Part shown: positions 13,897 through 29,524 of the stretch, in pieces
Numbering within the stretch: the first letter of the stretch is position 1
Layout: each line of letters starts with the position of its first letter
NCBI RefSeq assembly: GCF_007990755.1
Contig: NZ_BJXA01000003.1
Span: 1 to 64,000 of the forward strand
Direction: 5' to 3'
Length of the DNA stretch: 64,000 nt
DNA from: Nocardia ninae NBRC 108245
Lineage (GTDB): Bacteria; Actinomycetota; Actinomycetes; Mycobacteriales; Mycobacteriaceae
Notes under the pieces: model-generated
The model's input: the letters and a program-made list of their open reading frames with translations, nothing else
What the model was told of the DNA's origin: nothing
The model's database searches: none
Translations under genes and position numbers: made by a program

Positions 13897-13903
13897 CGTG
13901 ATC

Positions 13904-14284
13904 ATGACGATTACCCAGATCAACACCATCACCGCGTTCGTTGCCGACCAGGACAAAGCCAAGGAGTTCTACACCACGGTGCTCGGCTTCACCGTGCGCG
14001 GCGACCAAACCATGGGGGACAACCGCTGGCTGGAGGTCGCGCCCAGCGAGGCGGGCACCGCCATCGTGTTGCACAAGCCGTTCCCCGGCGCGAGCCCCGG
14101 CACGCTGTCCGGTGTGATCCTGGGTAGCGACGATGTGGACGCCGCCGCCGCCCGGCTTCGCGAGGCGGGAGCCCAGGTGGACGGCCCGCACGAGCTGCCA
14201 TGGGGCCGACAGGCGACGTTCGCCGACCCGGACGGCAATTCCTTTGTGCTGCAAGCGCCTCTGGCTCAGGAGCGGCAGCAGTGA
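13904..14284 (+). CDS. VOC (glyoxalase/bleomycin resistance) family protein
   Basis: 126-aa vicinal-oxygen-chelate protein with two beta-alpha-beta-beta-beta units: INTITAFVADQDKAKEFYTTVLGF and DDVDAAAARLREAGAQV, ending FADPDGNSFVLQAP. Family members bind metals or sequester antibiotics. As first gene of an operon with an exporter and an ArsR regulator it could be a drug- or electrophile-handling protein. ATG 13904 is preferred to the in-frame GTG 13898 because transcription should begin at about 13903. Confidence 0.85.
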   Translation: MTITQINTITAFVADQDKAKEFYTTVLGFTVRGDQTMGDNRWLEVAPSEAGTAIVLHKPFPGASPGTLSGVILGSDDVDAAAARLREAGAQVDGPHELPWGRQATFADPDGNSFVLQAPLAQERQQ

Positions 14285-15237
14285 CACCATTGCTCGAGGC
14301 GGATGGCGTGGTCAAACGCTTCGGTGCGATCCGCGCACTGGACGGTCTCGACCTGGTCGCCGAGCGCGGCGAACTGCTCGCGATCCTCGGCCGCAACGGC
14401 GCGGGCAAGACGACCTTCGTGCGCATGCTGGCGACCCTGACCCGGCCCGGCGCGGGTTCGGTGCGGGTATTCGGGAACGACACGGTGCGCGATGCGCAGC
14501 GGGTGCGCAGCTCGATCGGCTTGGCCGGGCAGCACGCGACGGTCGAGCCGCTACTGACCGGGTTCGAGAACCTGGTGATGATCGGGGTGCTGTTCGGTCT
14601 CACGCGCCGTGCCGCCAAGGTTGCTGCCACTCGGGTACTGGAACGGCTCGGGCTGACCGACCGGGGTGGCGACCGGGTCGCTACCTATTCCGGCGGCATG
14701 CGGCGGCGGCTGGATCTGGGCGCGAGTTTGGTCGGGCGGCCCGCGCTGCTGCTGCTCGACGAGCCGACCACCGGCCTGGACCCGGCCAGTCGGCACGAGC
14801 TGTGGAAGTTGGTGCGGGACTTGATATCCGACGGCGTCGATGTCGTGCTGACCACGCAGTACCTGGAGGAGGCCGACGTGCTGGCCGATCGCGTCGTGGT
14901 GCTGGAGGCCGGGCGGGTGGTCGCGGACGGCACGCCCGAGGAGTTGAAGGGTATGCATGGTTGCGACGTGGTGTCGTTGCGCGCACGGCGTCCCGAGGAT
15001 CTCGGCGCCATCGAGGCGGTATTGACCGACCTCGCGCGCGACGAGGTAACGGTCGACGCGGCGGCGGGCTCGGCGCGCTGGTCGTCGCCGAACGGCGGTG
15101 CGGACGCGGCTCGTTGCTTCGCCGCCGCCGCGGCGGTCGGGGCTGTCATCGAGGAGATCACCGTGCGGCGCCCCACGCTGGAAGAGGCATTCCTGGCACT
15201 GACCGACACCCCGCGCGAGGCGGAGGTGGTGTCGTGA
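14281..15237 (+). CDS. DrrA-type ABC exporter ATP-binding protein
   Basis: ATPase of the daunorubicin-resistance (DrrA) family: Walker A GRNGAGKTT, signature YSGGMRRRLDLGASL, Walker B LLLLDEPTTGLDP, and a C-terminal extension ending VRRPTLEEAFLALT, typical of DrrA. GTG 14281 overlaps the VOC stop (GTGA). 318 aa. With the permease at 15234 it forms a two-component exporter; the substrate is unknown. Confidence 0.92.
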   Translation: MTPLLEADGVVKRFGAIRALDGLDLVAERGELLAILGRNGAGKTTFVRMLATLTRPGAGSVRVFGNDTVRDAQRVRSSIGLAGQHATVEPLLTGFENLVMIGVLFGLTRRAAKVAATRVLERLGLTDRGGDRVATYSGGMRRRLDLGASLVGRPALLLLDEPTTGLDPASRHELWKLVRDLISDGVDVVLTTQYLEEADVLADRVVVLEAGRVVADGTPEELKGMHGCDVVSLRARRPEDLGAIEAVLTDLARDEVTVDAAAGSARWSSPNGGADAARCFAAAAAVGAVIEEITVRRPTLEEAFLALTDTPREAEVVS

Positions 15238-16052
15238 AAGCCGTGGAATCCATTGCGGTGGTGCCGGTTCCGCGGCGGAGTGCCCCCGTCGCCTGCGTCG
15301 CGATGGTGGCCGAACGCGCGATACTGACAACGTGGCGTAACCCGCCGATCGTGGTGACGGCGATGGTGCAGAGCGTGGTGTTCCTGCTGATCTTCCGTTT
15401 CGTGTTCGGCGGCGCCATTGCCTCGGGTGAGCTGCCCTACGTCGACTTCATGGTTCCCGGCTTGCTGGCCGCCGGAGTGTTGTTCTCGGTGATGCGGGTC
15501 GCGAGCAGCGTCGCCGAGGACCGCGCGGCGGGGGTGGTCGACCGGTTTCGTTCGCTGCCGATGCCGCCGTCCGCAGTGCTGATCGGACGGGCGGTCGGCG
15601 ACCACGTGCTGACGATCAGCACGCTGGCCGCGACCTCGATGGTCGCGTTCGCGGTGGGTTTCCGTGTACGCGAAGGGTTTTGGGGCATCGCGGCGATGCT
15701 CGCACTATGTCTGCTCGCCGCGGTCGCCTTCACCTGGGTGTTCATCGCCGCAGGGCTCGCGGTCGGCAGTGTGCAGGCCGCGCAGGGTGTCGGGTTCCTG
15801 GTGTTGCCGGTCTCGTTCGTGTCCAGTGCGTATGTGCCGGTGTCGACGATGCCGGGGTGGTTGCAAGCGTTCGCGACGCATCAACCGTTCACCGTGCTGG
15901 TCGAGGCCAATCGCTACCTCGCCCAGGGGGAAGCCGGACTGGTCGGCGCGACACACTCCGGCGGGTACTACGTCGTCGCGGCGGTGGCCTGGTGCGCCGG
16001 TATCCTCGTCGTTGCCGCGTCGGCCGCGTTCGTCCTGTTCCGCCGGCGCTGA
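15234..16052 (+). CDS. DrrB-type ABC exporter permease
   Basis: ABC-2 type membrane protein, 272 aa, about six helices, with a cytosolic N-terminus and the family-typical DRFRSLPMPPSAVLIGRAVGD segment. GTG 15234 overlaps the ATPase stop (GTGA). It partners with the DrrA-like ATPase. Ends with a short basic tail (FRRR). Confidence 0.9.
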   Translation: MKAVESIAVVPVPRRSAPVACVAMVAERAILTTWRNPPIVVTAMVQSVVFLLIFRFVFGGAIASGELPYVDFMVPGLLAAGVLFSVMRVASSVAEDRAAGVVDRFRSLPMPPSAVLIGRAVGDHVLTISTLAATSMVAFAVGFRVREGFWGIAAMLALCLLAAVAFTWVFIAAGLAVGSVQAAQGVGFLVLPVSFVSSAYVPVSTMPGWLQAFATHQPFTVLVEANRYLAQGEAGLVGATHSGGYYVVAAVAWCAGILVVAASAAFVLFRRR

Positions 16053-16077
16053 CCGTTTCGCCCTACCGAAAGCGACA

Positions 16078-16425
16078 ATGCCGCAGCGAACCAAGGCATC
16101 CAGCGTCGACCAGTTGTTCGGTGCGCTGGCGAACCCGACTCGACGGGACATCCTGGACGGACTGCTCGATGGCGAGCAGACCGTCCAGGCCATCGCCGAG
16201 CGCTTCGACATGGCGCGTCCCAGCGTGTCCGAGCATCTGAAGGTGCTGCGGGACTGTGGATTGGTGATCGAGGAGAAGCGCGGGCGGTTCCGTTACTACC
16301 GGCTCTCGGCCGATCCGCTACTGACTCTGCGCAGCTGGCTCAACCCGTATGAGCGGTACTGGCGCGACAGCCTGACCGAGCTCGGCAAGGTGCTCGACGA
16401 GATGGACGACGAGACGCAACCATGA
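16078..16425 (+). CDS. ArsR-family winged-helix repressor
   Basis: 115-aa ArsR-type regulator: LFGALANPTRRDILDGLL, then the recognition helix in DMARPSVSEHLKVLRDCGLV and wing EEKRGRFRYYRL. No CxC metal-binding motif is present, so it is probably not a metal sensor. Encoded 25 bp after the permease and overlapping the SRPBCC gene (ATGA). ArsR genes paired with SRPBCC/AHSA1 genes are a common actinobacterial arrangement. Probably represses the whole operon at the 13874-13889 palindrome. Confidence 0.9.
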   Translation: MPQRTKASSVDQLFGALANPTRRDILDGLLDGEQTVQAIAERFDMARPSVSEHLKVLRDCGLVIEEKRGRFRYYRLSADPLLTLRSWLNPYERYWRDSLTELGKVLDEMDDETQP

Positions 16426-16865
16426 GCGACGATCCGACGGCCGTCGAGGTCGACCAGTTCTACCCGCATCCACCCGCGAAGGTGTGGCGGGCACTGACCA
16501 CCCCGGAGCTGATGGGCCGGTGGTTGATGGAGCCGGACGGCTTCGAGCCGGTGCTCGGTTGCCGATTCCGGATGCGCGCCAAGCCGATTCCGGCGGTGAA
16601 CTTCTCCGGCGAGGTGGCCTGTGAAGTGCTCGAGGTGATCGAAGCCGAACGGCTACAGATCAGTTGGGCCGATGCGACGGCTGTGCATCCAGCCGACTGG
16701 CGGATCACCTGGAGCTTGCATCCGGAAGGGCGCGGCACTCGAGTACTGCTGCGGCACAGCGGCTTCGACCCGGATGACCCGATGCAGCAGCTGTCCCGCC
16801 GGATGATGGGCGGCGGTTGGCCGACCGTCGCGCGCAACCTCGGGACGGCGCTCGACACGATGTGA
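16422..16865 (+). CDS. SRPBCC (AHSA1-like) domain protein
   Basis: 147-aa START/Bet v1-like protein with the hydrophobic-ligand cavity pattern DQFYPHPPAKVWRALTTPELMGRWLMEP at the start and GWPTVARNLGTAL near the end, characteristic of AHSA1-type proteins. Translationally coupled to the ArsR gene. Ligand and role unknown; it may bind the compound that the exporter removes. Confidence 0.88.
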   Translation: MSDDPTAVEVDQFYPHPPAKVWRALTTPELMGRWLMEPDGFEPVLGCRFRMRAKPIPAVNFSGEVACEVLEVIEAERLQISWADATAVHPADWRITWSLHPEGRGTRVLLRHSGFDPDDPMQQLSRRMMGGGWPTVARNLGTALDTM

Positions 16866-18237: not shown

Positions 18238-19014
18238 TCAAAGGCTGATGTCCCAGTCGATGTCGGGACTCATCATCGACGGCGGCAGCCCGAAGGTGCG
18301 CCGGCAGGTGCGGGTGAGGTGCGCGCTGTCGGCGAAACCGGCCGACGCGGACGCGGTCGTCATGTCGTCACCGGCCATCACGCCGTTCATCGCGATGTAG
18401 AGCCGCAGCCAGAGGATGTAGCGCCGCAACGGAATACCGACCTGTTCGGTGAACAGATGGGTGAGCCGAGTCGCCGAGATCCCCAGCTGGCGTGCCACAT
18501 CGGAGCCGCGGACCGAGCCGTCCTTGACCATGTCGGGCAGCAGCTGCAACGCCGCGGTCACCACGCCGTGCCGATCGTCGCGGTCGGCTGCCTTGTTGTC
18601 GCGCAGCAGATCCGTGAGGATGTCCGACACGTGCCCGGCCAGTCGGCCCTGTCCCGGATCGACGTTGAGACTCTGCACCCAGCCGTGCAGATGGGCCCGC
18701 CGATCGGCGGCCGCGCCGGCCACGGTCTCCGGGTCGAGGTAGACCGCGATACCGTGCGCGGCCCCGCCGCAGACCCGGTGTGGCGCGTCGGTGGGCACGA
18801 TGAGATGACTGCCCTCGCGCCGCACCCCGCTGCCGTCCACGACCATGACCGGGGTACACGAGGCCATGATCTGTACGGCGTGATGGGCGTGCAGTTCGGT
18901 CGGTAGGACCTCGCCTTCGAAAGCCAGGATGCCCGGCCGTAGCAGCGCGGTGCCCCGCCACTGCACTTCGGCGTCCGATGACGTCGTTGATTCGTTGCTG
19001 ACCAGAGCCTTCAT
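18238..19014 (-). CDS. AraC-family transcriptional regulator
   Basis: 258 aa. An N-terminal cupin-like sensing region (ELHAHHAVQIM) precedes the C-terminal double helix-turn-helix with SDVARQLGISATRLTHLFTEQVG and SASAGFADSAHLTRTCRRTFG. It lies downstream of the PapA-like operon on the same strand, separated by hairpins. It may control that operon or act elsewhere. SD-like GGGAG precedes ATG 19014. Confidence 0.88.
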   Translation of the reverse strand: MKALVSNESTTSSDAEVQWRGTALLRPGILAFEGEVLPTELHAHHAVQIMASCTPVMVVDGSGVRREGSHLIVPTDAPHRVCGGAAHGIAVYLDPETVAGAAADRRAHLHGWVQSLNVDPGQGRLAGHVSDILTDLLRDNKAADRDDRHGVVTAALQLLPDMVKDGSVRGSDVARQLGISATRLTHLFTEQVGIPLRRYILWLRLYIAMNGVMAGDDMTTASASAGFADSAHLTRTCRRTFGLPPSMMSPDIDWDISL

Positions 19015-19213: not shown

Positions 19214-20596
19214 TCATACCCGAACCGAGATCGCGGCGGACAGGGTCGCGGCGACCTTGTCGAGGAACTCACCGATCAACGGTCCTGCGGTGGGCGTCGC
19301 GGGGAAACGGGTGCGCAGGGCGAGCCCGTCATCGGTGCGGGTGAACCACAGCTGCACGTCGTCCAGCGGTGCACTGCGGCTGAGCTGGGCCGGATTGCGA
19401 GGCACCGTGCGGGTCGTGTCGCTGCGCGAACCGCCGGGTAGTCGCCGGTAGTCGGTGTAGGAGACGCTGAACAGATCCTGCCTGGTCCGGCGCAGGTCAC
19501 TGCCCATCGCGGCGAGGACGCGGTTGGCGGGCACCTGCGCCAACCGCTGCCCAGACCGGACCGCGTCGTCGGCGGCCTGCGCGGTGGCGCAGAAGTCGTG
19601 CGCCACCGGCACATGCGCCGGGGCGTTCGACACCAGCCAGCCGAAGGTGTTGTGGTGTCGCGGTTCCCGCCGGGTGTGCACCGGAAATACCAGGTCGACG
19701 CCGGTGCGACCGCCGAGTTCGGCGGCCGCCATGGCCACCGCTGCGAGCAGCGCCGCGAACATCGAATACCCGTCGGCGCGCGACTTGCGGTGCAGCGCGT
19801 CGGTGGCCATGGCGCCGAGCAGCAGGCGGACATCGCTGCCGAACGGCGCCACCGACCCGGCGGGCAGGCCGAGGTCGAGCGGGAAGTGCGGCAGGTCGTT
19901 GCCCGCCGCGTGCAGGAAGTCGCGCCACGAGCGGATCAACGGCCCGGTCGCCGCCGCCGGAATGGCGGCCTCCCTGGTCGAATAGGACAGGAAGCTGCCC
20001 GGCTCGGGCAGCCGGTCGGCGGCCGCGACGGCGCCGTCGTGGCCGTCCTCGCAGGCGGCCCGGTACAGCTCGTCCAGCTCCGCCACCGCGATGGTGATCG
20101 ACCAGGCGTCACACACCGCGTGGTCGAATCCGCAGACGATGGTGGAGGTTTCGGACCTGCTGACCGCGCCGAGGAAGTACGGCGCGAAGGTGAACGGCGA
20201 GCACGCCTGATCGAGCCGGCCGCCGAGGACGGTGCGCAGGTCCTCGGTGGTCGCGGTTTCGACGGCGGGCTGGGGGAGGAGGCGGATGTCGCTGTCCACC
20301 ACCACGTGCACCGAGGCAGGCTTGCCTTCCTCGGGGCGTTCGAAGCTGCAGTGCAGGGCGTCGTGGCGCGGTAGCCACACCGAGAACGCCGTCTGCAAAG
20401 CGGATTCGTCGATCGGACCGGCCACGTCGAAGGTCGCGGCGAGCCAGGTCGTCGGCCCGCCCGAGGCCAGGTGGATCGCCTGGTTGGCCGAGGGTGGAGT
20501 CGCGTCCGGGGTCGGGCCGGGCTCGGCGACCGCGGTCCATTCGAGCAGGGTGCCCGGTGGTGCATTCAGTTGGTCGAGAAAAAGCAACTGCATCAT
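19214..20596 (-). CDS. PapA-like acyltransferase / stand-alone condensation-domain protein, third gene
   Basis: 460-aa protein of the condensation-domain superfamily, resembling mycobacterial PapA (polyketide-associated) acyltransferases that esterify trehalose or other lipids. It opens with the PapA-like PPGTLLEW, and GWLVSNAPAHVPV matches the family's conserved mid-region. The active-site motif HxxxDG is degenerate: His159-AVC-Asp163 followed by Ala and Trp instead of Gly. ATG 20596 overlaps the upstream stop (ATGA). It may be a divergent or non-catalytic partner of the two preceding proteins. Confidence 0.75.
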   Translation of the reverse strand: MMQLLFLDQLNAPPGTLLEWTAVAEPGPTPDATPPSANQAIHLASGGPTTWLAATFDVAGPIDESALQTAFSVWLPRHDALHCSFERPEEGKPASVHVVVDSDIRLLPQPAVETATTEDLRTVLGGRLDQACSPFTFAPYFLGAVSRSETSTIVCGFDHAVCDAWSITIAVAELDELYRAACEDGHDGAVAAADRLPEPGSFLSYSTREAAIPAAATGPLIRSWRDFLHAAGNDLPHFPLDLGLPAGSVAPFGSDVRLLLGAMATDALHRKSRADGYSMFAALLAAVAMAAAELGGRTGVDLVFPVHTRREPRHHNTFGWLVSNAPAHVPVAHDFCATAQAADDAVRSGQRLAQVPANRVLAAMGSDLRRTRQDLFSVSYTDYRRLPGGSRSDTTRTVPRNPAQLSRSAPLDDVQLWFTRTDDGLALRTRFPATPTAGPLIGEFLDKVAATLSAAISVRV

Positions 20597-22047
20597 GACC
20601 TCGCGAGAGCTGGTGCGGTGACCGCGAAATCGCCGGTCTCGGCGATTGCGCGCAAGGTGGTGCGGATCTGCTCCAGATACTCGGCGGCCGACTTGTGCGC
20701 GACCGGCGTGTCCGGATACATCATCGTGACGTGCAGCCGCTCCAGCTCCCGGTTGAACCAGATCGGCGAGGTCTGCCCGATCTTGCTGCGGGAGCCGAGA
20801 CCGTTGATGCCGGAGACGCCGGGCAGCGCGGCCTCCAGTGCCGGACCGGACACCGCGCGCATGTCCAGGTAGGACACCCACGGCCAGTCCGTCGTCGCAG
20901 GCAGCGGCGCGCCGGTGAGCTCGGCCGCCCGGTCGAGCGCGGCATGGATCGGGACGTTGGACAACGGCTTGGTCCAGTCCAGGGCGACACCGGCTCGGCC
21001 GATCAGCTCGGTGAACCGCTGCGCCCCGTCGAGATCGAACGCGATCGGCATCAGGTTGATGAACCAACCCTGCGCGAGCTGGTACTGCGGCTCGCTCCGG
21101 GTGCCGACCACATTCATGCCCAGATAGCTTGTCCGGCCCGCGAATTCGAGCTCGGCCAGCGCGACCGCCGCGTACAGCCCCGCGGAGAACGAACCGCCCG
21201 CGTTCTTGCACGCCGCGGCGAACGCGTCGATTTCGGCCGCATCGAGCATGTCGACCTTCGTGCCGAAGCTGTCGGCGACCTCACCGGGCGCGAGACCGAG
21301 CTCGATCGGCAGCGGGCGGACCTGGTGTGCTTTCTCGGCGAGCAGGCCTGCCAACTGCTCCAACTCCGGCGGCCGTGCGGCGACGGCGGCGCGCTCGGTC
21401 CTGGCGAACTCGACGTAGCTGCCGACCGGCGGCAGCACCGGCTCCTGGCCGGTGCTGAACGCCGTGTAGAGCGCATGGAATTCGTAGGTGGACGTGAGCA
21501 CCGACATGCCGTCGGTGAACGCGTGGTCGGCGCTGTAGACGATGGTGAATCCGTCCGCACCGTGATCGATCGCGCAGCAGACGATCGCGGGCCAGCGCGT
21601 CGGGTTGGCGTTGGCCTTGAACTTCGCGACCAGGGTGTCGCGCAGCTCGCCGCTGTCGGTGAAGGTGTCGAGGGTATGGGTTTCCAGATCGACCGCTGCC
21701 GGGTCGAGCAGGTATCTGGTCAGCGCGAACCCGCCGTCGGATTCGTCGATCCGGAACCACGAGCGCAGCGTCTCGTGGCGCTGCAGGAACGCGATGTAGG
21801 TCCGGCGCAGCGCCTCCGCGTCGAGCGGGCGCGCGATCGTGAAGCAGAACGAGAGCTCGGAAGCGAGCGGGTCGTTGGTCTGCCTGCGCGCCGACCAGCG
21901 GCGGATGTGCGACTCCTGCAGGTAGGTCGCGGGGATGTCGGAGGGCGCGGTGGCTTCGGTGGCGGCCTGGCTCGCCGCCGTGGTGGTGAACTCGAGTAGC
22001 ACGCCGGGTTTCGGCTGCCAGTGTTCGGTGAGGGTCATCTCTACCAT
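20593..22047 (-). CDS. PapA-like acyltransferase, second gene
   Basis: 484 aa. PapA signature features: PKPGVLLEF near the start, ATYLQESHIRRW, LQRHETLRSWFRI, the intact HxxxDG motif (His175, Asp179, Gly180 in SADHAFTDGMS), GSYVEFARTER and GWFINLMPIAFDL. In the known family the motif His acts as base for acyl transfer from a thioester to a hydroxyl. ATG 22047 has AAGGAG ten nt upstream and overlaps the preceding gene by seven nt. Acyl donor and acceptor unknown. Confidence 0.8.
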   Translation of the reverse strand: MVEMTLTEHWQPKPGVLLEFTTTAASQAATEATAPSDIPATYLQESHIRRWSARRQTNDPLASELSFCFTIARPLDAEALRRTYIAFLQRHETLRSWFRIDESDGGFALTRYLLDPAAVDLETHTLDTFTDSGELRDTLVAKFKANANPTRWPAIVCCAIDHGADGFTIVYSADHAFTDGMSVLTSTYEFHALYTAFSTGQEPVLPPVGSYVEFARTERAAVAARPPELEQLAGLLAEKAHQVRPLPIELGLAPGEVADSFGTKVDMLDAAEIDAFAAACKNAGGSFSAGLYAAVALAELEFAGRTSYLGMNVVGTRSEPQYQLAQGWFINLMPIAFDLDGAQRFTELIGRAGVALDWTKPLSNVPIHAALDRAAELTGAPLPATTDWPWVSYLDMRAVSGPALEAALPGVSGINGLGSRSKIGQTSPIWFNRELERLHVTMMYPDTPVAHKSAAEYLEQIRTTLRAIAETGDFAVTAPALARS

Positions 22048-23489
22048 GACAGCGGCGCTCCTTCGATCGGACGGATTCGGGCGTCCCCATAGCGGGTGAA
22101 CTCGGCGAGCAGATCGCGCATCCGCAGTACGTGCCGATGGATGTCGCGGGTCGCCTTGGTGGTGCCGGGATAGCGCATGTTGAGCGTCACGCCCTGCTGT
22201 GTGCGGACGAACCAGAAGAAGAACTCGTCGGCCGAGACGTTGCGGCTGCGCAGCCAGCGGGTGTTGGTGTCGACCCAGGTCGGGGCCGACTGAGCGCCGC
22301 GCACGTCCATGTACGACACCATGAACGAGATGCGCGGCCGGGTGCCGAGCAACTCGCAGACCCGGCCGAACGGCACCGTCGCCGCGCCACGGGTGCGGCG
22401 CAGCTCTTCGCCCGCGGGCTGGATGAGCTCGGCGAGATTGCGTGCGGGACCGCAATCCAGCTGGAACGGCGCGAGCCCGACGAACCAGCCGAGCGTGTCG
22501 GCCCACTGCGCTTCGGTGCGCGTGTGCAATGGGATCACCGTGCGGAAATCCCGTCCGGCACCCAGCTCGGTCGTGGTCACCGCGAACGCGGCGAGCAGGG
22601 CCGCGAACAGCCCCTGACCCTGTTCCCTGGCGACCGAGGCCGCCGCGTCGGCCGCGTCGGCGTCGAGCACCTCGACCGACAGATTGCGCTGCGGCACCCG
22701 CCGCGACGAGGCCTCCGCGGGACCGGTGAACTCGATCGGCGCCGCGGCGACCTTGCTCAACGTGCCGCAGGGCAGGGAGTTCTCGGTGTTCTCCGGGAAG
22801 AACGTCCGCCAGGTCTGCACGGCCGGGTCGTCGGCGGTGGCCGCGGTGGCGCGGACGCGTTCGTCTTGGCAGAAGTCGACATAGCTGCCGGTGTCGCACA
22901 GCTGCGCGGACTTGCCCGCGCGGACCGCGTTGTAGAGCGCGTGCAGCTCGCCGCCGGTGGAGACGGTGGAGTAGCCGTCCATGATCGAGTGATCGGCGGC
23001 GAACACGACGGTGAAGCTGTCGCGGCCCGCGATGGTCACGGCGACGTAGGAGGGCCAGCGCAGCGGCGAGGTTCCGTCGTCGAGCAGCCCGTGTACCAGG
23101 CGATACGTCGCCATCGTCGAGGTCGGCGCACCCGCGTCGACCGGTTGGACCCGGATGTCGCCGGGCGGCAAGGTGTATCTGGCCGGCTGGCCGCCCTCGA
23201 TGGCGACATGCGAGCGCAGACCCTCGTGCCGGTCGATCCAGGCATCGAAGGCGGTACGCCAGGCCTGCGGGTCGAGCGGTCCGTCGATCCGGAACGCGTG
23301 CCCGAGCCAGTAGTGGCGCCGATCTCGTATTCGACTGTGTTCCACCGCATCTCGAAGATGATGCTCGTGATTATAGGAAACGGCGCGAGTATCCCGCGGC
23401 CAGTCGGCCCAGTGTGAAGTGGCAGTCGGGAGCCACTCGATCACACGGCCGCTCGGCAACGGATAATCGGCCAGTTCGATGAATTCCAT
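22041..23489 (-). CDS. PapA-like acyltransferase, first gene of the trio
   Basis: 482 aa. It opens ELADYPLPSGRVIEWLPT, like mycobacterial PapA proteins. It has the motif His167-SIM-Asp171-Gly172 (AADHSIMDGYS), GSYVDFCQDERVR and LGWFVGLAPFQLD. First gene of a three-gene coupled operon; the leader contains a nested inverted repeat (23585-23633). Mycobacterial PapA1/A2/A3 build acyl-trehaloses with a FadD and a polyketide synthase. No synthase is present here, although a FadD-like ligase lies 4 kb upstream. Confidence 0.8.
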   Translation of the reverse strand: MEFIELADYPLPSGRVIEWLPTATSHWADWPRDTRAVSYNHEHHLRDAVEHSRIRDRRHYWLGHAFRIDGPLDPQAWRTAFDAWIDRHEGLRSHVAIEGGQPARYTLPPGDIRVQPVDAGAPTSTMATYRLVHGLLDDGTSPLRWPSYVAVTIAGRDSFTVVFAADHSIMDGYSTVSTGGELHALYNAVRAGKSAQLCDTGSYVDFCQDERVRATAATADDPAVQTWRTFFPENTENSLPCGTLSKVAAAPIEFTGPAEASSRRVPQRNLSVEVLDADAADAAASVAREQGQGLFAALLAAFAVTTTELGAGRDFRTVIPLHTRTEAQWADTLGWFVGLAPFQLDCGPARNLAELIQPAGEELRRTRGAATVPFGRVCELLGTRPRISFMVSYMDVRGAQSAPTWVDTNTRWLRSRNVSADEFFFWFVRTQQGVTLNMRYPGTTKATRDIHRHVLRMRDLLAEFTRYGDARIRPIEGAPLSW

Positions 23490-23584
23490 GACACACCTTC
23501 AGCTGCCCATCGGCCGTTCCCTGTGCGCGGTAAGGGAATTGCCGATCCGAATAGTGACAAGAATTTCGGCCTGCACCCGAGAAC

Positions 23585-23633
23585 TTTGTCCGTACCGTTC
23601 CGGGACGTCATCGTCGGACCGGAACGAGACAAA
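23585..23633 (-). repeat. Nested inverted repeat in the PapA-like operon leader
   Basis: Outer arms TTTGTC / GACAAA and inner arms CGTTCCGG / CCGGAACG around a 15-nt centre. It could be an operator or an RNA hairpin about 100-150 nt upstream of the first start codon. Confidence 0.55.
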
Positions 23634-23860
23634 CTGTAGAAGAAATTCTTGGTGAATGCGTGGGTGAGCCTGATCACCGATATTTGCCCCGATATCGCGG
23701 ACAACGGCGTTGCGGGCAGCGCAATGGGGGAGTGCGACGCCGCTGCCAGCGGCAATGTTAAACACTCAATGTTCAGGTAGCTGATAGATTGCCGGACAAT
23801 GTGTCTCAATGCACCTGGAATTCATCCCAGGTTTGCATGATCTTTACAGCTATCAACCCT

Positions 23861-23918
23861 GAAGGCGGGCTAAACGTAACCTGGGTCACGCCCGGATTGT
23901 CCGGTTCGGCCCGCCTTC
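23861..23918 (-). terminator. Terminator-like inverted repeat after the CocE-type gene
   Basis: Ten-bp arms GAAGGCGGGC (23861-23870) and GCCCGCCTTC (23909-23918) with a 38-nt loop, just past the hydrolase stop. Confidence 0.5.
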
Positions 23919-23928
23919 CTCGTCTGTC

Positions 23929-25983
23929 TCAGCCGCCGAACGCGGACTCGGGCGCCAGCGGCACGACCAGGCTCGACGGCCGGGCCGCGTCCCGATGGAG
24001 CTGCTGCGACGAACCGAGCAAACGCGGCAGATCGGTCGGAATGGGCATGGTCGACGGGAAGGTGCCGCTGGTGATCCGCAGGCGCAGTGCGTGTCCGGGT
24101 GCCAATCGGTAGAAGGTGGGGCGGATCTTGATCTCCAGCTTGGTCACCTCGCCGGGCGTCAGTAGCTGCTCCGCGTCCTTGCGGACCACGTGTTCCGGCG
24201 CGTAGATGGTGCCATCGGTTGCGCGCCAAGTCTTTTCATCGTTCAGCGTACGCTGGCTGGCCAACTGGGAGCCGCCGGTGATATTGACCGCCGAACCGTC
24301 CGGCGCGACATCGTCGAGCCACACCTGGAAAGCGGCGTCGGTGCTGGTCGAGGACGCGTACAGGGTGACGCTGCTCGGGCCGGCCAGCACGGTCGGCTCG
24401 GTCACCGGGTCCATCGTGTAGCGGCGGCCGGCCACCGGCTCCTGTACCCACTCTGTGCACGGGTTGTAGGCGTTGAACAGGCGGAACAGGAAGTCGAACA
24501 GGCCTGCGCTGTACTGACCGAGGCTCTGCCGGTTGCAGATGGAGTCGATGCCGGTGTAGTCGAGGCGATCCGACGCGTCCGCGACCGTGGGTGGTTGCGT
24601 GACGAGTCGATCGCCGTCGAAATACCGCTGCTGAACCGCCGCCTGCTCGAACGGATAACGCGCGGCGCTGACCGCCGTATTGTTCGGGTCGATCACATGA
24701 AGCGTTTTGTCTGTTTTGTCTATTCCATTCGGAATGTCCTTGAGCCACCGGTCGAACCAGGCAACCGTGATCATGTCGGTGTCCAACCGTGAGCCGGGCC
24801 CGAAGCCGAGGCCGACGTGGTACCACGGGCCCATCAGCAGCTGGAATCGTCCGTCGGGAGTCTGATCCGGCGCCATCGGCGCGAACTGGTCGCGGCCCGC
24901 GGCCAGGTTCTGCAGCTGGGAGTAGTTGCGCCACGGACCTTCCTGGTACAGGTCCCACAGGCCGCCGATCTGGTACATGGCGATGCCGTTCTCAACGACC
25001 TTGTTCAGGTCGGTCTCGAAGCGGCGGTCCTGCCACCACTGACCGTCGTAGGCCAGCGGGCCGCCGCCGTACGCCTCCAGCAGTAGCTTGATCGTGCTGT
25101 CCGAGGAGACGACCGCCTGGAGATGGTCGACGAGCGTCTTGATGAACATCTGCGGGGAGACCACCGCGGTCAGGAACGGGCCGATCAGGCTCAGATACGG
25201 CACCAGCACCGAGATGGCGGTGAGCAGGATCGGGCTCATCATGCCGTCGTGGCCGAGCACCTCGTTGAAGATGTTGTTCGGCATGGCCATCGGCACGATC
25301 GCCTTCAACGGCGAACCGGGCGCGACGGATTCGGCTGTGCGCAGGGCCGACAGCGCCGGGAACGAGTACCCGAACATGCCGACCTTGCCGTTGGAGCCGG
25401 GCAGTTTCGCGGCCCAGTCGACCAGCTGGGCGCCGTCGACGCCGTCCTGCTGGGACGCGGGGTTCCACGCGCCGGTCGAGCCGCCGGTGCCGCGCACGTC
25501 GGCGATCACCTCGATGTAGCCGCGCCGCACCAGCATGTCCTGAGCGCTGGTGGCCTGGTTGATGATTCGGCGCGCGTCCTTCAGCTGATCGGGCAGCGGG
25601 ATGTGCAGTGTGTCGATCACGCTGGTCACCGCCGCGGCGAGCGCGCTGGACACCGCGCCGTAGGTGGTGAAGTTGACGATGACCGGGAACTCACCCGCCG
25701 CGCGCTGACCGGTGGCGGGGTCGGTGGGGTAGCGCACCTCGGTCTGCAACTGGGTGCCGTCCGCGAGCGGAACGATATGTCCCAGTTCATAAGCGATGCC
25801 GTAGCGCTCGGGCGTCGGCTGATAGTCGGCGGGCAGGCCGAAGTTCGCGGGCGCGTTCGGAACCGGGCCTGAAGTAGGCACCGCGTTCGCGGCGGGTGTG
25901 AGCTGGATGATCAGGCCGACGGCGGTGATGGCGGCGACCGGCACAGCGCGGCGGAAGGTCCGCGCCCGGAATGCAATTCTCAA
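23929..25983 (-). CDS. Secreted CocE/NonD-family hydrolase (X-Pro dipeptidyl-peptidase-like)
   Basis: 684-aa alpha/beta hydrolase with an export signal (RTFRRAVPVAAITAVGLI, probable cleavage after ANA near residue 34). It has a catalytic domain and a C-terminal jelly-roll-like non-catalytic domain (EPTVLAGPSSVTLYASSTS onwards). The nucleophile is Ser207 in GMFGYSFPAL; family enzymes usually have G-x-S-Y/x-x-G, so GYSFP is a variant. GPWYHVG probably holds the catalytic His. TTG 25983 is the likely start. It acts outside the membrane on peptides or esters; the substrate is unknown. Confidence 0.82.
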   Translation of the reverse strand: MRIAFRARTFRRAVPVAAITAVGLIIQLTPAANAVPTSGPVPNAPANFGLPADYQPTPERYGIAYELGHIVPLADGTQLQTEVRYPTDPATGQRAAGEFPVIVNFTTYGAVSSALAAAVTSVIDTLHIPLPDQLKDARRIINQATSAQDMLVRRGYIEVIADVRGTGGSTGAWNPASQQDGVDGAQLVDWAAKLPGSNGKVGMFGYSFPALSALRTAESVAPGSPLKAIVPMAMPNNIFNEVLGHDGMMSPILLTAISVLVPYLSLIGPFLTAVVSPQMFIKTLVDHLQAVVSSDSTIKLLLEAYGGGPLAYDGQWWQDRRFETDLNKVVENGIAMYQIGGLWDLYQEGPWRNYSQLQNLAAGRDQFAPMAPDQTPDGRFQLLMGPWYHVGLGFGPGSRLDTDMITVAWFDRWLKDIPNGIDKTDKTLHVIDPNNTAVSAARYPFEQAAVQQRYFDGDRLVTQPPTVADASDRLDYTGIDSICNRQSLGQYSAGLFDFLFRLFNAYNPCTEWVQEPVAGRRYTMDPVTEPTVLAGPSSVTLYASSTSTDAAFQVWLDDVAPDGSAVNITGGSQLASQRTLNDEKTWRATDGTIYAPEHVVRKDAEQLLTPGEVTKLEIKIRPTFYRLAPGHALRLRITSGTFPSTMPIPTDLPRLLGSSQQLHRDAARPSSLVVPLAPESAFGG

Positions 25984-26525: not shown

Positions 26526-27698
26526 TTACGGTGCAAATGAGGCGGATTCGAGTCTCCTCGCCAGCCGTGCTGCCGACAGAGTCATGGCGTCGGCCGGGCG
26601 GTGCGGGTCGAGGCCGGTCAGCTCGTTTACCCGAGAAAGCCGGTAGGTCACCGTATTTCGGTGCACATTGAGCTGCCGGGCCGTCGCCAGCTGATTGAAG
26701 CCGCTGTCGACGAATACCTCGAGGGTTTCGGCGAGCATGGGCTGCGGGTCCAGCGGCGCGAGTACCGCCGCGAGTCCGGGGCGGGCCGCGTCGCTCACCG
26801 CGACCGTGTATTCGAACTGTAAATCCTGTCTGCGGCACAGGATTTCGCGCCGGGTGAGGCAGCGGCCCAGTTCGGCGAGTACCCGCGCCTCGGCGTACAT
26901 CGGCGGGATCGCGTCCTTGGTGCGGGCGGCGCCGACCCCCACCCAATACGGTGGCGGTTCGGCCGGTTCCTGGGCGGGCAGCCGCGCGGTGAGCCCGGAC
27001 AGGGTGGCCGAGCCGTCGTCACCCGCCTGCAACGGGATCAGCGCGGTCCAGCCGCCCGCGTCCAGCCGGAGGAACACCCCGGGAATCGCCTCCACCCGAT
27101 GCCGCAGCGCCGATGCCGGCCCGCCGCGGGTGCCGCACAGGCGGAACACCGCGACGAGGAAGGCGTCGGCCACCGGGATCACCGGATCGTTCGCCCACTC
27201 GACCGGGTCGCGGCCGGTGAGCAGCGCGTCGGCGATGCCGCGCCTGCGTTCCAGCAGCTCCCAGCGCGGGTCGTGCACGCGCTGGGTGGCCGCGGTGGCG
27301 ATCCGGGAGGTGACCAGCGTGACGTACTTCAGCAGCGCGAGCGAGGCATCGAAGAGCAGCTCGCGCTCGGCCGGGCCGGCCGAGGCGCGCAATCGCTCCC
27401 AGAGGAACGCCGCCCCGAACCGGTAGCGCTCCAGCACCTCGGGCAGCGGGGTGCCGTCGCGCAACCGATCCATCGCGAGCTCGACGAGTTCCCTGGTGTC
27501 CTCTTCCGACGGATCCTCGCCGCGGCGCAGATACTCGAAGAACAGGTCCACGTTGAGCTTGGTGCCCCGGGCGAAGTCGGTCTCCACCATGGATTGCGGC
27601 AGCCGCTGGTACGGCGGCAGCGCGGCGTAGAACGCTTCGAGAGTCGACGTGGTCCGTCGATGAAGATCGTCGAACACCCGAGTCCGCGATGGCATCAT
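26526..27698 (-). CDS. PucR/CdaR-type transcriptional regulator
   Basis: 390-aa regulator: an N-terminal RsbRD-like region, a central GGDEF-like domain characteristic of PucR/CdaR proteins (PYWVGVGAARTKDAIPPMYAEARVLAE) and the C-terminal PucR helix-turn-helix (FNQLATARQLNVHRNTVTYRLSRV). The start is ATG 27698 (or 27695), 20 bp after the acyl-CoA synthetase stop, so the two genes are probably one operon. It may bind the iteron array that follows it. Confidence 0.88.
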   Translation of the reverse strand: MMPSRTRVFDDLHRRTTSTLEAFYAALPPYQRLPQSMVETDFARGTKLNVDLFFEYLRRGEDPSEEDTRELVELAMDRLRDGTPLPEVLERYRFGAAFLWERLRASAGPAERELLFDASLALLKYVTLVTSRIATAATQRVHDPRWELLERRRGIADALLTGRDPVEWANDPVIPVADAFLVAVFRLCGTRGGPASALRHRVEAIPGVFLRLDAGGWTALIPLQAGDDGSATLSGLTARLPAQEPAEPPPYWVGVGAARTKDAIPPMYAEARVLAELGRCLTRREILCRRQDLQFEYTVAVSDAARPGLAAVLAPLDPQPMLAETLEVFVDSGFNQLATARQLNVHRNTVTYRLSRVNELTGLDPHRPADAMTLSAARLARRLESASFAP

Positions 27699-27718
27699 GC
27701 TGGTTCTTCTTCCCGGAC

Positions 27719-29524
27719 TTAGGTCGAGTACAAGGCCTCGATGGTATCTGTGTAGCCGCTGGAAATGGGCTTTCGCTTGAGTTTGCCAGTAGCGGTCAGG
27801 TAGTCGCTGCCGTTCTCCCATACCTCGGGGAGCACGATGTACTTCCTGATCTGTTCCACCCTGGACAGTTTGCTGTTCGCCGCGGCGATGCCCTCGTCGA
27901 TCGCGGTCAGGATCTGCGGGTCCTTCGCGAGCTCGGCGACGGTGCTGCCCGCCAGGTTGTGCCGCTGCGCGTAGGCGGCGGCCAGGTCGGGGTCGAGCAC
28001 CAGCAGCGCGGTGTTGAACGGCCGCTGCTCGCCGATCACCACCACCGTGCCGATCAGCGAGCAGTTGTCGGTGACCGTGTTCTCGATGTTGGCCGGCGAC
28101 ATGTTCTTGCCGGACGCGTTGATGATGAGCTCTTTTTTGCGGTCGATGATCGAGAGGTAACCGTCGCTGTCGATGCTGCCGATGTCGCCGGTGTGCAGCC
28201 AGCCGTCGCTGTCGATCGTCTCCGCGGTCTTCGCCGGGTCGCCCCGGTAGCCGCGCATCACCATCTTGCCGCGCACCAGCACCTCACCGTCGTCGGCGAG
28301 CTTGACCTCGGCACCCGGCAGCGGGGTGCCGACCGTGCCGATCTTGACCCGCTCCGGCGGGTTGAGCGTGGCGCCCGCAGTGCATTCGCTCATGCCGTAG
28401 CCCTCGCACAGCGGGATGCCGAGCCCGAGGAAGAACTCGTGCACCTCCGGCGGGATGGCGTTCGAGCCGGTGACCGCGATGCGGACCTGATCGAGGCCGA
28501 GCCCGGCGCGGATCGAGGTGAGCACCAGGCGATCGGCGAGCGCGTACTGGAGCCGATCGAGGGCGCCGAGGGGGCGGGCGTCGGAGGTGGCGCGGGCCTT
28601 CTTGCGGCCGACGTCGACCGCCCAGTGGATCAGGCGGCGCTTGACCGGCGACTCGGTCGCGAACCGTTCCTCCAGTGCGCCTTTGACTTTCACCCACACC
28701 CGGGGGACCCCGAGGAACACGCTCGGGTGCACCTCCGCCAAAGCCGTTGCCACCTGCTTGAAGTCGGGGACGGTGGTGATCTGGCAGCCCTCGAGCAGGG
28801 TCAGGTAATGCGCGAACCAGCGGTTGGCGGCGTGCGCGTCGGGCAGGTAGGAGATCACCCGGTCGTCGGGGCCGCCACCGCCGAATGTCTCCAGGACACG
28901 GGCGTTTTCGATGAAGTTGGTGTGGGTGAGTTCCACGCCCTTCGGCGGCCCGGTGGTGCCTGAGGTATAGACGACGGTGAGCAGATCGTCCGGCTGCACC
29001 TTGCGCCAGGCGGTGTCGAAATCGAAACCCTCGGCGGTGCGCTGTTCCAGGTCGGCCAGCGCGAGCGTGCCGTCGGGCGCCTCGTCCACGCAGATCACGT
29101 GCTCGACGTGGATGCCCTCGGCGGCGGCCTTGGCCACCGCCTCCAGGATCTTGGGCGCGAACTGCCGTTCGCAGACGACGGCCTTGTTGCGCGCGTTGCC
29201 GAACTGGTAGACGAGCAGGTCGACCGGGTTGGTGTTGTACACCGAGAACGGCGTCGCGCCGGTGTGCAGGATGGCGGTGTCGCAGAGGTGGAACTCGGGG
29301 CGGTTGGTCAGCATGATCGCGACCGTGTCGCCGGAGGTAATGCCCAGCGCGGCGAGCCCCGTCGCGATGGTTCGCACCCGTTCGCCGTACTCGCGCCAGG
29401 TGATGGAGACGGCACCGCCGAGGGTGCGCAGCGCGACCGCGTCCGGGTACTTCGCGACGTTTGACTGGAACGCCGCACACAGCGTGTCCGGGCGGGCGGC
29501 CGCCGGGACTGTCGATGAAACCAA
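27719..29524 (-). CDS. Long-chain acyl-CoA synthetase (FadD15-like)
   Basis: 601-aa AMP-forming ligase activating fatty acids to acyl-CoA. Seen: P-loop TVVYTSGTTGPPKGVELTH, GYGMSECTAGATL (the A5 motif), GWLHTGDIGSID (A7), DRKKELIINASGKNMSP (A8), and a C-terminal Lys in TGKLKRKP. The length and LC-FACS-type linker fit FAA1-class enzymes. TTG 29524 follows AGGTTAGG-like sequence. It could supply acyl-CoA to the PapA-like enzymes; this is contextual inference. Confidence 0.9.
   Translation of the reverse strand: MVSSTVPAAARPDTLCAAFQSNVAKYPDAVALRTLGGAVSITWREYGERVRTIATGLAALGITSGDTVAIMLTNRPEFHLCDTAILHTGATPFSVYNTNPVDLLVYQFGNARNKAVVCERQFAPKILEAVAKAAAEGIHVEHVICVDEAPDGTLALADLEQRTAEGFDFDTAWRKVQPDDLLTVVYTSGTTGPPKGVELTHTNFIENARVLETFGGGGPDDRVISYLPDAHAANRWFAHYLTLLEGCQITTVPDFKQVATALAEVHPSVFLGVPRVWVKVKGALEERFATESPVKRRLIHWAVDVGRKKARATSDARPLGALDRLQYALADRLVLTSIRAGLGLDQVRIAVTGSNAIPPEVHEFFLGLGIPLCEGYGMSECTAGATLNPPERVKIGTVGTPLPGAEVKLADDGEVLVRGKMVMRGYRGDPAKTAETIDSDGWLHTGDIGSIDSDGYLSIIDRKKELIINASGKNMSPANIENTVTDNCSLIGTVVVIGEQRPFNTALLVLDPDLAAAYAQRHNLAGSTVAELAKDPQILTAIDEGIAAANSKLSRVEQIRKYIVLPEVWENGSDYLTATGKLKRKPISSGYTDTIEALYST

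Follow-up and report, generated by a model that had tools for sequence, protein, structure and literature searches.

Chemical records of acylated trehalose lipids, which are surface lipids and biosurfactants, go back to at least 1989 for Nocardia, Rhodococcus and Tsukamurella (references of PMC4365757); tables in that paper include a succinic trehalose tetraester for N. farcinica and, for Rhodococcus, Tsukamurella and N. corynebacteroides, acylated oligosaccharide lipids. Among the enzymes that build such lipids, PapA2 and then PapA1 add one acyl group each, and PapA3 adds two (PMC4183827). The genetic basis of succinoyl trehalolipids is called poorly understood in PMC8396431, where TlsA of Rhodococcus sp. 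SD-74 is given as the only acyltransferase with demonstrated activity. The same paper lists papA3, papA1 and papA3 in a row in the marine Rhodococcus sp. I2R (17 and 3 nucleotides (nt) apart), with a fourth papA3 1.5 kilobases (kb) further on; this strain makes succinoyl di- and trisaccharide esters, and the authors propose the papA genes for their acylation. A single papA3 near a glycosyltransferase is described in a Rhodococcus in PMC13206832, and in the sections of PMC9009618 considered here we saw no papA cluster. Here, we analyze a trio of adjacent genes, A, B and C, in a stretch of 64,000 nt from Nocardia ninae NBRC 108245 (the window), and we lean towards reading it as a co-translated module of three PapA-type acyltransferases that makes a tri-acylated glycolipid, most probably an acyl-trehalose.

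Results

Three overlapping genes encode PapA-type acyltransferases

A preliminary description of the window had reported three adjacent minus-strand genes with overlapping start and stop codons, and this anatomy is confirmed (Table 1). A and B overlap by 7 nt (ATGGTAG) and B and C by 4 nt (ATGA); each gene has its own start and stop codon, and a purine-rich stretch can be read from the sequence upstream of each start. The overlaps suggest translational coupling, and that part of the earlier account stands; production in a fixed ratio, which it also claimed, would go further than the overlaps themselves indicate. The ratio of non-synonymous to synonymous substitution rates (dN/dS) lies between 0.08 and 0.37 in all 15 comparisons of A, B and C with five relatives. 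The three are therefore genes under purifying selection, which rules out chance frames as well as decaying genes. Divergence within the trio is mosaic: relative to N. colli (L045), A is 84% identical, B 96% and C 95%, and relative to N. brasiliensis (L041) the values are 91%, 73% and 88%. These uneven identities suggest recombination inside the trio.

Each protein matches the Pfam Condensation family PF00668 (85.6, 70.6 and 50.2 bits for A, B and C, with a cut-off of 30.6) and has no other Pfam domain; adenylation and carrier domains are absent, as is a match to PF16911 (PapA_C) at E 0.001. Among solved structures, the best sequence match of all three is the trehalose acyltransferase PapA2, ahead of the domains of non-ribosomal peptide synthetases (NRPS). 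The fold comparison, which covers the predicted structure of A alone (the model of C, with a predicted local distance difference test (pLDDT) score of 62.8, was too poor to search), again places PapA2 nearest, with the NRPS fold match 7 Z units weaker. Identity is 26-28% among the three proteins and 21-25% to PapA2, and the catalytic HxxxD motif is intact in all three and in every one of 114 aligned rows. In our tree, built by a quick method with only Shimodaira-Hasegawa-like approximate likelihood ratio test (SH-aLRT) support and with long branches for PapA2 and the NRPS row L001, B groups with PapA2 (support 80) and three of the four NRPS rows fall outside the A, B and C groups; the fourth, L001, a bad cut-out in which three in-frame stops were replaced by X, is separate from them and sits at the base of the A, B and C groups.

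The proteins thus display what marks the PapA branch, namely a stand-alone condensation fold (compared for A only), HxxxD and greater closeness to PapA2 than to NRPS domains, and none is embedded in a multidomain synthetase as an NRPS domain would be. Of the polyketide synthase (PKS), FadD and MmpL that usually, though not by definition, accompany PapA genes, only a FadD lies nearby, and it is not specific to the trio. The lone domain, the PapA2-nearest sequence and fold, the tree and the distance to the nearest NRPS on the contig together rule out A, B and C as ordinary NRPS domains. The earlier assignment as PapA-like therefore stands; the combination named as refuting it, a phylogeny inside NRPS domains together with an NRPS close by, is not what we observe. 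The closest PF00668 matches outside the trio on this contig begin at C3:102711, some 79 kb away, in an NRPS frame with four condensation-domain matches (C3 102711-113732). The absence of a nearby PKS holds too: no ketosynthase was found on the trio's 300-kb contig (C3), on which MmpL occurs only at 266-268 kb.

The trio is kept in order in Nocardia and in other genera

Searching 148 Nocardia genomes with A, we found it at 59% identity or more to the window's A (type-I A) in 21, in one of which (G066) it is in two pieces. In all 18 further type-I loci that we read (L039-L050, L052, L054-L056, L058 and L071; L053 and L057 duplicate L048 and L050), the order is A-B-C. A and B overlap in each of them, and B and C in 17, lying 2 nt apart in L055. 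The named species are N. suismassiliense, N. tenerifensis, N. brasiliensis (two), N. vulneris, N. altamirensis, N. colli, N. panacis, N. puris, N. wallacei (two) and N. mexicana. Six more Nocardia loci (L061-L066) carry a divergent trio, whose A is 31-36% identical to that of the window, and here too the order is A-B-C in 6/6. The expectation that the trio would be conserved in order across Nocardia is thus borne out. Partial sets occur as well: A-B-B (L059, L060), A-B (L067, L070) and A alone (L068, L069).

Beyond Nocardia, a C profile found strong matches (E <=1e-100) in 13 of 31 genera among 301 genomes of the family, and an A profile gave eight matches at 1e-50 among 296 genomes of the phylum. 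We examined 20 non-Nocardia actinobacterial loci, with genes called in relatives' loci by a simple codon-usage script rather than a gene finder. A, B and C are adjacent in this order in 14 (the loci were picked from strong hits, and 14/20 is not a frequency); three have the order B-C-sseA-sufE-A, one has C-A-B and two hold a single member. In several genera (type-II loci), A-B-C is followed by sseA, sufE, another A-type gene (A') and accA3. A search of viral contigs with C as query returned no relative.

The A, B and C groups form three separate, co-diverging clades in the tree, and the distances of the three genes correlate over 31 trios (r 0.920, 0.864 and 0.880), a set that includes trios with A apart from B-C (L129, L130, L134) and one in the order C-A-B (L135). 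Distances of linked genes correlate in any case, and the reading of age leans on the three-group tree too. From the two together it follows that the three enzymes had separated before the genera that carry them arose and that the set has mostly been inherited together. The pattern offers a clear example of early divergence into three enzymes with later inheritance as a set. In two loci the module is doubled, with two trios inside one 20-kb stretch and sugar-transfer and transporter genes between them (L131 390-19196; L124 299-18834, where the first A falls outside the sequence examined).

Divergent trios adjoin sugar and export genes

A DrrA-type ATPase and an ABC-2 permease lie beside all six divergent Nocardia trios and beside nine of the 14 non-Nocardia A-B-C loci (L122-L125, L127, L131-L133 and L137). 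An EryCIII-like glycosyltransferase is found at 11 of these 14, and a family-2 glycosyltransferase at many. Many non-Nocardia loci also hold one or two extra HxxxDG proteins (k3); the four tested have no Pfam match. In Tsukamurella tyrosinosolvens (L158 3292-13353), the same maf-sseA-sufE-A'-accA3 site is occupied by three PapA5-like proteins (PF16911) and a glycosyltransferase, which stand between maf and sseA; an A-type gene follows sufE and precedes accA3, the acyl-CoA carboxylase alpha gene. This record is called plasmid 9, carries housekeeping genes and may be a chromosomal piece.

With B as query, relatives outside the actinobacteria were found on plasmids of Sinorhizobium (five records) and Cupriavidus (two). 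With the A profile the S. fredii protein reaches 390 bits, versus 259 with B and 250 with C. On plasmid pSfreNXT3b (L157 10489-18227), this PapA-A-like protein is accompanied by a sulfotransferase, a GMC oxidoreductase, a class-III aminotransferase, a HAD hydrolase and a TreT-type glycosyltransferase. The plasmid cluster, also seen in L161, L160 and L051 8782-16266, continues with AraC and an RND efflux pair. Relatives of all six cluster proteins occur in Sinorhizobium sp. 8-89, and the annotation of S. americanum contains the same set. For C. taiwanensis, a sulfotransferase, a condensation protein, GMC, an aminotransferase and an adenylyl-sulfate kinase are listed; a glycosyltransferase is not among the genes in that incomplete plasmid table. 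Judged by its gene content, the rhizobial cluster reads like a pathway that would lead to a sulfated, acylated (amino)trehalose, and our literature search found no paper on it. Because the neighbors of the A lineage there include a sulfotransferase and a TreT-type glycosyltransferase, a trehalose-type acceptor is favored for this lineage.

Discussion

These observations lead us to favor, with modest confidence, the tri-acylated glycolipid reading. In this mechanism, the HxxxD histidine in the condensation-fold tunnel of each enzyme would move one acyl group from acyl-coenzyme A (acyl-CoA), and A, B and C would act in turn, in the cytosol, each on a different set hydroxyl of one shared sugar. 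The predicted product is a tri-acyl glycolipid, most probably an acyl-trehalose that resembles the fatty-acyl part of the trehalose tetraesters, to which another enzyme may add a fourth group, such as succinate. Export would depend on a transporter encoded elsewhere in the genome rather than beside the trio. Multiple acylation of a surface sugar lipid, as the preliminary description had put forward, is plausible. If the trio is indeed such acylation machinery, which enzyme sets which ester becomes testable.

Several points weigh against this reading. M. tuberculosis PapA3 is reported to add two acyl groups by itself (PMC4183827), so the number of genes need not equal the number of acyl groups. 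The link between papA genes and lipid in Rhodococcus sp. I2R is itself genomic, with no mutant in the relevant passages of PMC8396431, and the papA genes are about 30% similar to TlsA. Among the annotated window neighbors of the trio there is no glycosyltransferase, exporter, trehalose gene or dedicated acyl-CoA ligase, and these neighbors exist without the trio in other Nocardia genomes. Finally, the L128 and L136 trios have no sugar or export genes and no k3 protein beside them; L128 groups with the window's lineage in the tree.

Stand-alone condensation-type proteins can tailor peptides and polyketides, and the trio might instead esterify a product of another type than trehalose, such as a polyketide, a terpenoid, a lipopeptide or another glycoside, whose genes lie elsewhere in the genome. 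With 88 PF00668 matches, of which the trio accounts for three, and 61 ketosynthase matches genome-wide, possible acceptors are many, and next to the trio we found no sugar gene in the window. We nevertheless consider this explanation unlikely: A, B and C are nearest to PapA2 rather than to NRPS domains, A also by fold; most divergent trios adjoin sugar genes; and in the type-I loci scanned, 16 out of the 18 further ones, no called gene exceeds 690 amino acids, which places no NRPS or modular PKS in their vicinity.

Less probable still is a single pathway in which the FadD11-like ligase upstream of the trio supplies its acyl-CoA, as the preliminary description had suggested. A FadD11 orthologue (at least 67% identity) is present in 19 of the 21 type-I trio genomes versus 27 of the 127 without a trio (Fisher 1.3e-9, a test that ignores shared ancestry), and in 18 of the 19 the two lie 1.6-4.2 kb apart, being on separate contigs in G093. 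Against a shared pathway, 27 of the 46 Nocardia genomes with the ligase (among 148) have no trio, and in all seven trio-less loci that we read, the ligase and PucR genes are adjacent all the same. Five of these seven also have CocE and four an AraC relative; in L154, a gap of 199 base pairs, measured between tblastn match ends, separates CocE from AraC at the place where the trio would be expected. Conversely, the N. panacis trio (L046) has no ligase within the 10 kb examined. The trio therefore looks to have been inserted into, or lost from, a pre-existing FadD11-PucR-CocE-AraC locus. Because this locus occurs without the trio, proximity is poor evidence of a shared pathway, and the ligase is rejected as a dedicated partner.

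In the window, the trio lies between the CocE-type hydrolase and the AraC regulator, downstream of the FadD11-like and PucR genes, and C is followed by the AraC gene and then by YidC. A simple promoter and terminator scan gave no minus-strand site, and thus no sigma-70-type promoter upstream of A. Between a NUDIX gene and YidC, a cassette at 13898-16865 encodes a glyoxalase, an ABC ATPase, an ABC-2 permease, ArsR and an AHSA1-like protein. As the trio's exporter the ABC-2 cassette is rejected, since the N. suismassiliense locus L039 carries the trio but none of these genes in 21 kb; in L040 the three small genes of the cassette are present and the transporter pair is absent. Elsewhere in the genome, an EryCIII-like glycosyltransferase is followed by an ABC-2 permease (L143; L139 in N. 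suismassiliense). This glycosyltransferase occurs in 20 of the 21 type-I trio genomes and also in 48 of the 127 others, counts that ignore shared ancestry, and we regard the pair as a weak lead to trio-linked genes. Beside the pair in N. suismassiliense lies an 854-amino-acid frame that fuses a family-4 glycosyltransferase and a cytochrome P450 (L139 6958-9522).

Table 1. Coordinates of the trio and of its neighbors in the window.
Feature	Position	Strand	Remarks
Gene A, PapA-type acyltransferase, 482 amino acids	22041-23489	-	active-site HSIMDG at residue 167
Gene B, PapA-type acyltransferase, 484 amino acids	20593-22047	-	HAFTDG at residue 175; PapA2 6AEF match 2.8e-38
Gene C, PapA-type acyltransferase, 460 amino acids	19214-20596	-	HAVCDA at residue 159; PapA2 6AEF match 3.2e-20
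Intergenic region upstream of A	23490-23928	-	probable location of the operon promoter
AraC-type regulator just downstream of trio	18238-19014	-	
CocE/NonD-type hydrolase upstream of trio	23929-25983	-	
FadD11-like acyl-CoA ligase upstream of trio	27719-29524	-	
PucR regulator gene, adjoining FadD11-like ligase	26526-27821		

The least probable alternative, that A, B and C form one hetero-oligomeric enzyme in fixed ratio, perhaps with one catalytic and two structural subunits, would suit the overlapping starts and the strongly kept gene order, but no subunit looks catalytically dead, given HxxxD in 114/114 rows, and the A-only, A-B and A-B-B sets of Nocardia indicate that the A lineage does not always depend on B and C.

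Returning to three successive acyltransferases, a broader version of this reading is possible, and we offer it tentatively, as more doubtful than not. A-B-C may be an unrecognized portable module, with one enzyme per trehalose position and with its sugar and export genes swapped, that would represent the missing machinery for the trehalose tetraesters and acylated trehalose oligosaccharides of Nocardia, Rhodococcus and their relatives. Its A lineage would have reached rhizobial plasmids, where a sulfated acyl-aminotrehalose is suggested.

How, then, does the trio compare with known systems? NRPS condensation domains share its Pfam family and fold and differ in the adenylation and carrier domains that the trio lacks, and PapA5-like proteins (PF16911) stand alone as the trio does, although A, B and C do not match that family. 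Closest are mycobacterial PapA1, PapA2 and PapA3 of the sulfolipid-1 (SL-1) and diacyl- and polyacyltrehalose (DAT/PAT) systems, which have the same lone condensation fold, the HxxxD motif and a similar length (the PapA2 chain has 468 residues). The trio departs from them in its low identity to PapA2, in uniting three genes in one operon, and in having no Pks, MmpL or sulfotransferase among its annotated neighbors, the nearby FadD not being trio-specific. That no three-PapA operon had been described, as the preliminary description held, needs qualification: three adjacent papA genes with a fourth are listed in Rhodococcus sp. I2R (PMC8396431), and we found no other three-papA set in the open-licence PMC literature. 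The I2R spacing fits the type-II arrangement A-B-C-sseA-sufE-A', a likeness drawn from listed coordinates only, the genes in the gap being unnamed in the paper. The window trio shares with the I2R cluster the three adjacent papA genes; unlike it, the trio belongs to another lineage (type I), has neither sseA-sufE-A' nor a fourth papA 1.5 kb downstream, and lies at a different locus. The I2R set is a partial precedent. We judge the trio itself to be a real module, old and conserved, whose enzymes are of a known kind and whose form is a variant, with three enzymes, no Pks and no local sugar or export genes found.
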